From a virus, in IMG/VR virus record IMGVR_UViG_3300024520_000278, positions 1-34,345 of that record: a DNA stretch of 34,345 nucleotides; one strand, given 5' to 3'. Position 1 is the first letter of the stretch. The number at the start of each line of letters is the position of its first letter. The notes under the pieces are model-generated. The model was not told the DNA's origin. It was given only the letters and a program-made list of their open reading frames with translations, and did not search any database. The position numbers and the translations under genes were made by a program. Positions 6,451 through 34,224 of the stretch are shown piece by piece.

Positions 6451-6456
6451 CATAGC

Positions 6457-6513
6457 AGCCTCTCAGCCTAACACGCTGAGGGGCTTTCTGGGTATAAGCA
6501 ACCTGCTTACAAT
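6457..6513 (+). repeat. 57-bp intergenic module, copy 1 (terminator hairpin plus inverted repeat)
   Basis: An 11-base arm AGCCTCTCAGC pairs with GCTGAGGGGCT across a short loop, followed by TTTCTGGGTATAAGCAA. A second inverted repeat TAAGC...GCTTA follows, then ACAAT. The same module occurs at 6927 and 7301. The first half looks like a terminator. The TACAAT at its end could be the -10 box of a new promoter, although the -35 box is poor. Confidence 0.8.
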
Positions 6514-6536
6514 TAACACACATATATATACAAACT

Positions 6537-6917: not shown

Positions 6918-6926
6918 TGCAGCAAC

Positions 6927-6983
6927 AGCCTCTCAGCCTAACACGCTGAGGGGCTTTCTGGGTATAAGCAATCCGCTTACAAT
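6927..6983 (+). repeat. 57-bp intergenic module, copy 2
   Basis: It differs from copy 1 at only two positions (loop of the second inverted repeat). It is followed by a CCAACACCAACC leader and the ATG at 7009. Confidence 0.8.
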
Positions 6984-7008
6984 CAACCAACACCAACCAA
7001 CCAACACC

Positions 7009-7290: not shown

Positions 7291-7300
7291 CCAACACCAC

Positions 7301-7357
7301 AGCCTCTCAGCCTAACACGTTGAGGGGCTTTCTGGGTATAAGCAATCCGCTTACAAT
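7301..7357 (+). repeat. 57-bp intergenic module, copy 3
   Basis: It matches copy 2 except for a C-to-T change in the right stem arm (GTTGAG instead of GCTGAG). The change keeps the stem as RNA through a G-U pair, which supports a function as RNA structure. Confidence 0.8.
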
Positions 7358-7372
7358 CAACCAACATAGAAC

Positions 7373-15516: not shown

Positions 15517-15717
15517 ATGATATATCCCAAAGGAACAACACTTAAAGGTCTCGGTCTCAAATTAACACTGGAAGATACGGAGCTAACGACGCCACCAGGA
15601 AGTTGCGCAGGCGACGAGTTTCTATATCACTGGAGGACGAGTGATGACCGCTCGCACCTAACAACTCACGTAGAACTTGCCTCACTGCTTGCAGACGGAG
15701 CGACACTTAATTACTAA
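15517..15717 (+). CDS. Small hypothetical protein upstream of PEP-CTERM gene
   Basis: This 66-residue protein begins MIYPKGTTLKGLGLKLTLED and has a single cysteine (PPGSCAGDEF). It is the first gene of the promoter at 15456 and is 7 bases from the PEP-CTERM gene. No signal peptide or membrane segment is seen. Function unknown. Confidence 0.6.
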   Translation: MIYPKGTTLKGLGLKLTLEDTELTTPPGSCAGDEFLYHWRTSDDRSHLTTHVELASLLADGATLNY

Positions 15718-15724
15718 AAACCAC

Positions 15725-16219
15725 ATGATGAATAAACTAACACTACTGGCACTGGTTGCCTTCTCAAGCGTGGCATCTGCCTCTGTCTTCAACGTTAATT
15801 CGGGCGTCTTAGCTAACACTCCAGACGTAGCCTTCAACGGCGGATCTTCAATGGTTCGCTTCAGTGACGGCAACTTCTTCCGCATGAAGGGTTTCGGTGA
15901 TCGCGTTGAGATGCAAAGCTTATCTACCATGGATTGGTCATTTGACGTCAAGGTCATCTACCCAAACATGCTACCGCTCGCAGACCTCTACAACATCGAG
16001 AAAAGCGACATCAAGACAATCGTGGCAACGGCTCGCCACAGTAACATGCAGGAATACAACGTGGGGGTCATTAAGTATATCAAGAGCGGGAAGCTGAGGT
16101 TAAGGGTGGTGTCGGCGCACATCATACCAGAGCCAGAAACCTTCTCGTTAATAGCGGGTCTACTAGCCCTTTCCTTCATCGCAATCAAGCGACGCAACAT
16201 AAACCAGAACCAACCATGA
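15725..16219 (+). CDS. Secreted PEP-CTERM domain protein
   Basis: This 164-residue protein has two hallmark sorting signals. An N-terminal signal peptide (MMNKLTLLALVAFSSVASA, likely cleaved after ASA near residue 19-20) directs export. The C-terminus carries PEP at 135-137, a hydrophobic helix (about residues 140-154) and the basic cluster KRR at 155-157, then a short polar tail. In known bacteria such PEP-CTERM proteins are processed by an exosortase (EpsH/XrtA type) and linked to extracellular polysaccharide or surface. The mature region of about 115 residues (SVFNVNSGVLANTPD onward) is not recognised. A start at 15728 is also possible. It overlaps the next gene by ATGA. Presence in a phage is unusual; anchoring presumably uses the host exosortase. 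Confidence 0.85.
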   Translation: MMNKLTLLALVAFSSVASASVFNVNSGVLANTPDVAFNGGSSMVRFSDGNFFRMKGFGDRVEMQSLSTMDWSFDVKVIYPNMLPLADLYNIEKSDIKTIVATARHSNMQEYNVGVIKYIKSGKLRLRVVSAHIIPEPETFSLIAGLLALSFIAIKRRNINQNQP

Positions 16220-16410
16220 GAAACACAATACTAATCACCTACATCCTAATATCATCAGCATCCATCTGGCTATTAGATAACTCACTGCGAGATGCCCAAA
16301 GCAACATAGACATACTTGCCGAATCAATTACCAGCCACGATTCCGTCCTGCGGAATCACAAGTCAGCTATACAAATCATCTTGGAGTCAATCCGAGGACT
16401 ATACACCTAA
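16216..16410 (+). CDS. Small membrane-anchored coiled-coil protein
   Basis: This 64-residue protein has an N-terminal hydrophobic segment (ILITYILISSASIWLL, residues 5-20) followed by a helical, hydrophilic region (about 25-60) with leucine/isoleucine heptad spacing. It resembles a signal-anchored membrane protein with a periplasmic coiled coil. It overlaps the PEP-CTERM gene by ATGA, so the two are co-translated and may work together at the envelope. It could also be a spanin-like or immunity-type protein; no motif decides. Confidence 0.65.
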   Translation: MRNTILITYILISSASIWLLDNSLRDAQSNIDILAESITSHDSVLRNHKSAIQIILESIRGLYT

Positions 16411-16445
16411 CACAAGCCAACAAAAAACAAACCACATCAAAAATT

Positions 16446-17129
16446 ATGAAAAAACCAAAACCAGTTCTAGTTATCGGCGACACTCACGCTCCAGCAATGC
16501 TCGACGGATACATTCCGTTTCTCAAGAAGATCTACAAGAAGCACAACTGCGCTCGCGTCGTGCATATCGGAGACTTAGTAGATTGGAACTCGATCTCCTT
16601 CCACGAGAAAGATCCGTCAATGCCTTCTCCAGTTGAAGAGTTTAAGCGTGCGTTTAAGCAGGTTCAGAAGCTCCACAAGGCGTTCCCGAAGGTTGACTAT
16701 ATGACAGGCAACCATAGCTCCCTCCCAGCCCGTAAAGCCCGCATGATTGGCTTGCCCGATGATGTGATGAAGAGCTTTAAGGATCTCTGGAAGCTTGAGG
16801 GCTGGACAATCCACCCTCGCTACGCCGATCTTGTGATTGACAACGTGGTTTACCGCCACGGCGACAAAGGCAAAGGTGGGGCAATGTCAGCTCACAAAAA
16901 CGCCATCTCCGAGTTCAAGTCGGTTGTCCAAGGTCACCTACACGCACAGGCTGGTGTAGTTTACCACGCCAACCAGAATGACTGCATCTTCGGCATGCAG
17001 GTGGGTTGCGGGGTTGACCACAACGATCCAGCAATGGCGTATGGCAAGGTCTACAGCAATAAGCCAATCGTTGGCTGCGGGGTTGTCTACAGTAGCAAGC
17101 TCGCTCACTTCGAGCCAATGTTCCTGTAG
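16446..17129 (+). CDS. Calcineurin-type metallophosphoesterase
   Basis: This 227-residue protein has the full set of metallophosphoesterase motifs: GDTH (11-14), GDLVD (42-46), GNH (88-90), RHGD with His 138, and GHLH (163-166). These bind two metals for hydrolysis of phosphoesters. Substrates in the family range from phosphoproteins to nucleic acids and nucleotides; the sequence does not tell which. The C-terminus ends EPMFL and shares a 22-bp DNA repeat with the next gene. It starts after AAAAATTATG. In phages, such enzymes may act in signalling or in DNA/RNA end processing. Confidence 0.88.
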   Translation: MKKPKPVLVIGDTHAPAMLDGYIPFLKKIYKKHNCARVVHIGDLVDWNSISFHEKDPSMPSPVEEFKRAFKQVQKLHKAFPKVDYMTGNHSSLPARKARMIGLPDDVMKSFKDLWKLEGWTIHPRYADLVIDNVVYRHGDKGKGGAMSAHKNAISEFKSVVQGHLHAQAGVVYHANQNDCIFGMQVGCGVDHNDPAMAYGKVYSNKPIVGCGVVYSSKLAHFEPMFL

Positions 17130-33264: not shown

Positions 33265-34224
33265 CTACGCTTCGTCGCTGAAGGCCACCTTGCCCAATCC
33301 ATTAGGTCCTGTGGTCATGAGAGCGTAACGTGTGTCAACCGCACCCTTGTAAGAGCCGCCGAGGAACGGATAATTCTCCGACTCGATGCCTTGGTACTCT
33401 GCAACGTGCAGAAGACCTGGGTTGATGAAGTAGCCGCGATCCGAAGAAGGCATGCAATTAGGGTTTGCGCTCTTCATCTTGATTTGACCGAACTGAGAGT
33501 CAATGATCTCAACCATCCAAGGGATAGTAGTAGTACCATTCACGTTGTAGTCAACTTGAGATGCTGCACCAGCAGTGCGTGTGAACGAAGCAACGATATG
33601 CTCGCGGAGACCTGGACCAGCAACCAACCAAAGATCTTGCATGGTTGTGTCTTGGCTCCACATCGAAGCGATTTGTGCGCCCATTGCTGCATCATCGTAA
33701 GAAGCCTTAAGACCACCGTAGATAGATGCTGCTGGAGTTACATAGAGTGCGTCAACACCATTTGCTGCTGTGTTGGAGATAAGAGCGCCGATACCAGCGG
33801 TTGCACCACCAGTAACACCTGGAACGTCAGCGGTTACGCCTTGGTCGCCGCAAAGAACGAACTCTTTGTCGATCGCAACTTCAATAGCAGACTTGTCGGC
33901 TGCTTTGATCATGTTGGATACAACAGCGGAGTCTTCTTGCTCTTGCTCTTTGGATACTGCGTACTCAACAACTGTGCGCTGAGCTTGACCTTCAAACTCG
34001 CGAACTTGCGAGAATGCGTCACGACCGCTGTTTGTGTCAGCACCTTCAACGTGTGGTGTATTTGCCACAGCCTTGAGCTTGTCCATGAGACAGCGAGGGC
34101 GCTTGTTCTTGGTTGCTGTGTGGTTCAGCAAGCCTGTTACTGGTGTGATGTCTGCTGCTAGCAATTCTGCGGTCTGTTTGAGAGACTCGCGATTACCGAC
34201 TGTACTTGAATATGTTTCTGCCAT
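33265..34224 (-). CDS. Major capsid protein (SU10/DUF5309-like)
   Basis: This 319-residue protein is predicted to form the head shell. The N-terminal pattern 'MAETYSSTVGNRESLKQTAELLAADITPVTGLLNHTATK' (G..E.L...I..I.P.TPLL-like) and the following E/V-rich stretch ('FSQVREFEGQAQRTVVEYAVSKEQEQEDSAV') are what I recall for the SU10-type major capsid family (DUF5309). The middle includes 'ELFVLCGDQGV'-like strand and 'IDKEFVLCGDQ'. Length fits an HK97-fold capsid. It is the first complete late gene, followed by a terminator. The start at 34224 follows the end of an upstream gene by 4 bases. Confidence 0.82.
   Translation of the reverse strand: MAETYSSTVGNRESLKQTAELLAADITPVTGLLNHTATKNKRPRCLMDKLKAVANTPHVEGADTNSGRDAFSQVREFEGQAQRTVVEYAVSKEQEQEDSAVVSNMIKAADKSAIEVAIDKEFVLCGDQGVTADVPGVTGGATAGIGALISNTAANGVDALYVTPAASIYGGLKASYDDAAMGAQIASMWSQDTTMQDLWLVAGPGLREHIVASFTRTAGAASQVDYNVNGTTTIPWMVEIIDSQFGQIKMKSANPNCMPSSDRGYFINPGLLHVAEYQGIESENYPFLGGSYKGAVDTRYALMTTGPNGLGKVAFSDEA

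Follow-up and report, generated by a model that had tools for sequence, protein, structure and literature searches.

The virus record analysed here (the window, 34,345 bases) carries at 15725-16219 a gene for an exported protein, P0001, that ends in a PEP-CTERM tail. Taken as a whole, we consider it an even call that this is a mobile accessory gene whose product would be sorted to the cell surface by the host exosortase and there most likely excludes competing phages. The PEP-CTERM sorting tag itself is known; its recurrent use by phages appears to be undescribed. The features of the locus are:

15725-16219, plus strand: gene of the PEP-CTERM protein P0001, 164 aa (translation, profile matches, homologues)
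15725-15781, plus strand: signal peptide, residues 1-19, predicted from sequence and hydropathy, with cleavage of the SVASA/S type that is kept in homologues
15782-16123, plus strand: mature domain, residues 20-133, predicted to be periplasmic or at the surface, without known family (omega 0.02-0.09; pLDDT 52)
16124-16195, plus strand: PEP-CTERM tail, residues 134-157, with IPEPETF, hydrophobic helix and KRR (profiles and homologues)
16216-16410, plus strand: 64-aa protein with an N-terminal hydrophobic helix, its start codon overlapping the stop of the P0001 gene
16446-17129, plus strand: calcineurin-like phosphoesterase, the conserved right-hand flank of the slot
15718-16445, plus strand: variable accessory slot, flanked by a 66-aa ORF (15517-15717) on the left and by the phosphoesterase on the right
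16345-16460, no strand: recombination boundary between the window and contig 3300024518_001340

The plus-strand translation reads MMNKLTLLALVAFSSVASAS, continues with VFNV and finishes with VVSAHIIPEPETFSLIAGLLALSFIAIKRRNINQNQP and the stop codon. In the protein the signal peptide MMNKLTLLALVAFSSVASAS is followed by a soluble region of some 114 residues and by the tail IPEPETFSLIAGLLALSFIAIKRRNINQNQP, with 7 residues left after the basic cluster. The only hydropathy peaks lie near residues 1-20 and 139-154, with nothing between them that resembles a membrane segment; together with the conserved SAS site this predicts an N-terminal signal peptide and no helix before the tail. The combination of signal peptide, C-terminal PEP, hydrophobic helix and KRR cluster in a single protein, noticed earlier in the sequence-only reading, was confirmed by translation, hydropathy, homologues and profiles. 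For the mature domain there was no match in Pfam, PHROG or PDB, the PDB sequence search giving chance-level hits only. An AlphaFold model from five family sequences was poor and showed the domain mostly as strands, at low confidence.

The gene belongs to a plus-strand cluster with a DnaB-like helicase and the late genes are on the minus strand, which is consistent with the early phage region in which it had been placed. On the minus strand, the terminase (438-2099) is located near one end of the window and the capsid protein (33265-34224), recognised by its homology to a protein of phage C75C1 that is annotated as major head protein, near the other. Comparison with sister contig G014 suggests that about 3.8 kb are missing between the window ends. 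The 64-aa ORF downstream of the P0001 gene had no homologue beyond a near-identical phage and is a possible co-translated partner of P0001. Elsewhere in the window, a 62-68 bp repeat with 95-98% identity occurs at 6456-6517, 6925-6992 and 7299-7366, each time in the gap that immediately precedes one of three consecutive small early ORFs; these copies are possibly regulatory elements of the phage.

When the tail was compared with the generic PEP-CTERM models, TIGR02595 matched residues 134-157 with 12.9 bits (cut-off 16) and PF07589 matched the correct place with 12.6 bits (cut-off 20.7). The homologues likewise stayed below both cut-offs, with 14.1-14.4 bits for TIGR02595 and 14.7-15.3 bits for PF07589. 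By curated cut-off P0001 is thus outside the family, and by the tripartite tail of PEP, hydrophobic helix and basic cluster near the C-terminus it is inside. Since the generic models are presumably dominated by clades other than Opitutae, a clade-specific profile was made from 13 PEP-CTERM tails of one Opitutae (Verrucomicrobiota) MAG, retrieved with TIGR02595 alone, and was run against 6798 six-frame ORFs from the window and 14 related contigs. Among these ORFs the score of P0001 was 34.5 bits (E 4e-9) and its four complete, distinct homologues ranged over 33-40 bits (E 1e-8 to 1e-10 for the family), and no ORF beyond the P0001 family was matched, the next unrelated one reaching 8.4 bits. About 2000 shuffled P0001 tails scored at most 4.1 bits with the same profile. 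An earlier, larger tail profile was partly circular, its loci having been fetched with a phage profile, and was excluded as a test.

The comparison was also made in the opposite direction. A profile of five phage proteins only (A2) found dozens of host proteins in 12 of 113 Opitutae genomes, and almost all of these matches were confined to positions ~120-160, i.e. to the tail, as in the pair of phage IPEPETFALIAGLLAFGSIMMKRR and host IPEPSTFALLAGLLAFGAIVTRRR. Because the Opitutae profile gave an E value of 4e-9 and the shuffled tails stayed so low, the match of the P0001 tail to PEP-CTERM is not due to chance; P0001 does match models of this signal, below the cut-offs of the generic ones and strongly with the Opitutae-specific one. 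A mere transmembrane anchor that resembles PEP-CTERM by coincidence, as the scores under the curated cut-offs might suggest, is highly improbable in view of these profile results and of a PEPETF and a KRR that are invariant in five proteins while the helix varies.

Homologues of P0001 were detected on five other viral contigs, complete in G002 (L006), G003 (L007), G004 (L008) and G005 (L009) and cut by a gap in G001 (L010); contig 3300024518_001340 has an identical copy. The complete homologues share 77-83% identity with the window protein, and every one of them retains the PEP-helix-basic tail, IPEPETF[AS]LIAGL...KRR, in which IPEPETF (flank excepted), LIAGL and KRR are invariant and the remainder of the helix is variable. 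Nei-Gojobori omega was 0.02-0.09 in the mature domain and about 0.07-0.19 in the tail where dS could be estimated; these values are approximate, as several pairs come close to saturation at synonymous sites. The family, including the tail, is under purifying selection.

Outside these contigs no relatives of P0001 were found: tblastn of P0001 and two tail sequences against INPHARED (50,697 phage records) gave no match, repeating the viral scan with five members of the family added no further homologues, PHROGs contained no family and a PADLOC search found nothing. A GTDB genome scan with the P0001 family and a search of 384 Opitutae genomes at E 1e-7 likewise gave no homologue, and hence no lysogen is known from the bacterial genomes searched, nor did they give any sign that the gene as a whole came from a host. 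One or several small repeat proteins adjoin the homologues (L006:6198-6919, L007:4287-4799, L008:2622-4463 and L010), with the pattern MKPLSE..KELGIAFSFPI..DANG..TYYEDSDGYW.RYERDANG; two that were checked had no Pfam or PADLOC match. A remnant of such a protein seems to be present in the slot of phage G036.

The slot that holds the P0001 gene is empty in sister phages G014 and G017 and is occupied by different small ORFs in G035 and G036; the gene is therefore an exchangeable, 'moron'-like accessory gene. The window is about 100% identical to contig 3300024518_001340 upstream of the boundary at 16345-16460, just downstream of the P0001 gene, and 63-90% identical beyond it. The carrier phages are unrelated in their replication genes. 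G003 and G005 encode a T7-like RNA polymerase, and the gene order in G003 is tyrosine integrase, directly followed by the P0001 homologue and then by the polymerase; G005 starts with a fragment that, compared by eye, matches the integrase region of G003. In G002, which has a BT4734-type primase/AAA protein, the homologue comes after a secreted cell-wall hydrolase (PF07486), and the DnaB of G004 shares 39% identity with that of the window.

To look for the host, an alignment of the phage lineage's terminase was used in a GTDB genome scan, which gave one close relative (50% identity) in an uncultured Opitutae MAG, on a 10-kb contig that could be mis-binned, and distant relatives in five more Opitutae genomes. 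The MAG encodes 2 exosortases and 16 PEP-CTERM tails over the cut-off. Exosortase was present in 89 of the 113 sampled Opitutae genomes and in all 12 with A2 matches, only weakly above the 79% expectation; none was found in 16 phage records tested. The T7-like RNA polymerase of G003 had no match in 384 Opitutae genomes, and thus they offer no such prophage to confirm the host. Because of the terminase relatives, the exosortases and PEP-CTERM tails of the MAG and the class-wide exosortase, Opitutae (Verrucomicrobiota) are the likely host of the marine phages that bear P0001, judged from sequence comparison, in which the link consists of the one close terminase relative plus tail similarity.

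In the published sorting model exosortase (EpsH) acts at the PEP motif (Haft 2006, PMC1569441). Like the proteins of that system, P0001 combines a signal peptide, a homology-free soluble domain and a C-terminal PEP-helix-basic cluster; it differs from them in being phage-encoded without an exosortase of its own, in scoring just below the generic cut-offs and in having PEPE instead of PEPS or PEPA. With a host-type tag on an exported protein, the phage probably uses the host exosortase to place P0001 on the surface of the infected cell. The gene, which we infer to be expressed early, would give a protein that is exported by Sec and anchored in the inner membrane through the C-terminal helix. 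The host exosortase would then recognise the PEP motif, cut, and re-attach or release P0001, and the conserved 114-residue domain would end up on the cell surface or within the exopolysaccharide layer, where it would most likely block the entry of competing phages by superinfection exclusion or receptor masking. As a phage-encoded exosortase substrate, which the sequence-only reading had proposed, P0001 is well supported by its sequence, its conservation and the host context; the missed TIGR02595 and PF07589 cut-offs and the poor fold model count against the reading as a whole.

Phage exclusion proteins are displayed via lipoprotein or plain membrane anchors. One of them is Ltp of TP-J34, a superinfection-exclusion lipoprotein of 142 aa whose gene adjoins int (PMC3952083). 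Compared by description, Ltp resembles the P0001 family as a small, exported, surface-anchored phage accessory protein with an integrase neighbour (in G003 and apparently G005), and differs in its lipobox anchor and Gram-positive hosts. An Ltp-type lipobox lipoprotein was considered for P0001 itself and ruled out: P0001 contains no cysteine and therefore no lipobox, and it has no family match. Of the uses suggested in the sequence-only reading (superinfection exclusion, receptor masking and biofilm change), exclusion is favoured because the homologue adjoins the integrase in related carriers, as ltp does; this genomic position is the one observation that speaks for it, and we propose the function tentatively, at somewhat less than even chances. 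The lack of a recognised integrase in the window phage weighs against it, and the cell-wall hydrolase next to the homologue in G002 could point to lysis instead.

The position after the integrase in G003 would also suit lysogenic conversion without phage exclusion, P0001 modifying the surface or matrix through adhesion, floc formation or altered attachment. PEP-CTERM proteins do contribute to floc formation by Zoogloea and Aquincola (PMC9850573; for the role in flocs also Gao 2018, as cited in PMC12642866). However, P0001 is small and without known adhesin domains, and the missing integrase of the window phage counts here as well; we regard such a role as unlikely. The close imitation of host tails and the small, accessory gene agree with a decoy or inhibitor, in which the phage protein, made in abundance, would keep the host exosortase busy at the expense of the host's own PEP-CTERM proteins and of exopolysaccharide assembly, with the consequence of a thinner matrix from which progeny escape and reach new cells. 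The mature domain is under stronger constraint than the tail, which implies that the domain has a job of its own and argues against a pure decoy, and this possibility appears to us distinctly unlikely. Finally, the hydrolase before the G002 homologue and the small membrane-type protein encoded by the 64-aa ORF might indicate a lysis accessory, anchored in the inner membrane or periplasm, that helps to disrupt the outer layers and for which the PEP tail would be just a membrane anchor. An invariant PEP would be superfluous for a plain anchor, the gene is in the replication/early cluster of the window as well as of the T7-like phages, and beside the homologue in the other phages no lysis gene was recognised, making this role improbable.

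If the host exosortase is indeed used, phages have a further display route, one that links the biology of phages with the way environmental bacteria form exopolysaccharide and biofilms. To our knowledge, most PEP-CTERM proteins are still without an assigned function. A phage family that is both conserved and mobile would be a defined exosortase substrate with an easily scored effect, infection or not, and exosortase processing would thereby become directly testable.

In the largely open-access literature searched, papers that combine PEP-CTERM or exosortase with phages, prophages, viral contigs or auxiliary metabolic genes describe no phage-encoded PEP-CTERM protein. The previous statement that no phage case of this layout had been described agrees with that literature, but the layout is not unique, since it recurs on many other viral contigs. 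A tail-only IMG/VR scan revealed further viral contigs encoding proteins with signal peptide and PEP-CTERM tail, some over the curated cut-offs. Among them, an adjacent gene pair (L137/L141) has phage genes for helicase, primase, polymerase and exonuclease as neighbours and scores 22-24 bits with TIGR02595 and 27-34 bits with PF07589, over cut-off. The L123 family, on low-GC contigs of up to 69.9 kb, is below cut-off, and L135, a contig of 138 kb that also encodes a phage thymidylate synthase and a fragment of a multi-subunit-type RNA polymerase, has a PEP-CTERM protein over cut-off. These contigs resemble the P0001 case in signal peptide, PEP-CTERM tail and, mostly, phage replication genes nearby, whereas their mature domains are unrelated, some pass the cut-offs and the hosts are presumably others (GC 36-68%).

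A second, broader tail scan confirmed 125 contigs (80 kept); a signal-peptide-like start was present, by a crude rule, in 79 of the 90 proteins examined, which formed 52 clusters when grouped by mature domain. Singletons, many of which may be host flanks of proviruses, were not counted as phage genes; the recurrent clusters beside phage genes are not likely to be such flanks. It is conceivable, if short of probable, that phages whose hosts possess exosortases have gained PEP-CTERM-tagged proteins on repeated, independent occasions as a general route of surface remodelling, mainly for competitor exclusion, with P0001 as one mobile family that passes between unrelated phages sharing a host group.

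Some of these contigs show peculiarities of their own. Two adjacent, different PEP-CTERM genes recur on high-GC contigs (L137:4440-5715, L141:3756-5090, L120:4464-5768 and L121:81-1356), close to genes for phage helicase, primase and polymerase, and one member of the L137/L141-type pair matches the FxDxF PEP-CTERM family NF038126 with 76-77 bits (cut-off 50). On the low-GC contigs (L123:2761-4536, L124:4452-6227 and L134:146-1969) the PEP-CTERM protein is followed by a downstream exported protein that is outer-membrane-barrel-like (weak Porin_4 match, E 0.016). Additionally, L135:4665-5078 encodes a 138-aa protein of near-identical 'AIQTAYSYSW' repeats with a PEP-CTERM tail over cut-off at its end.
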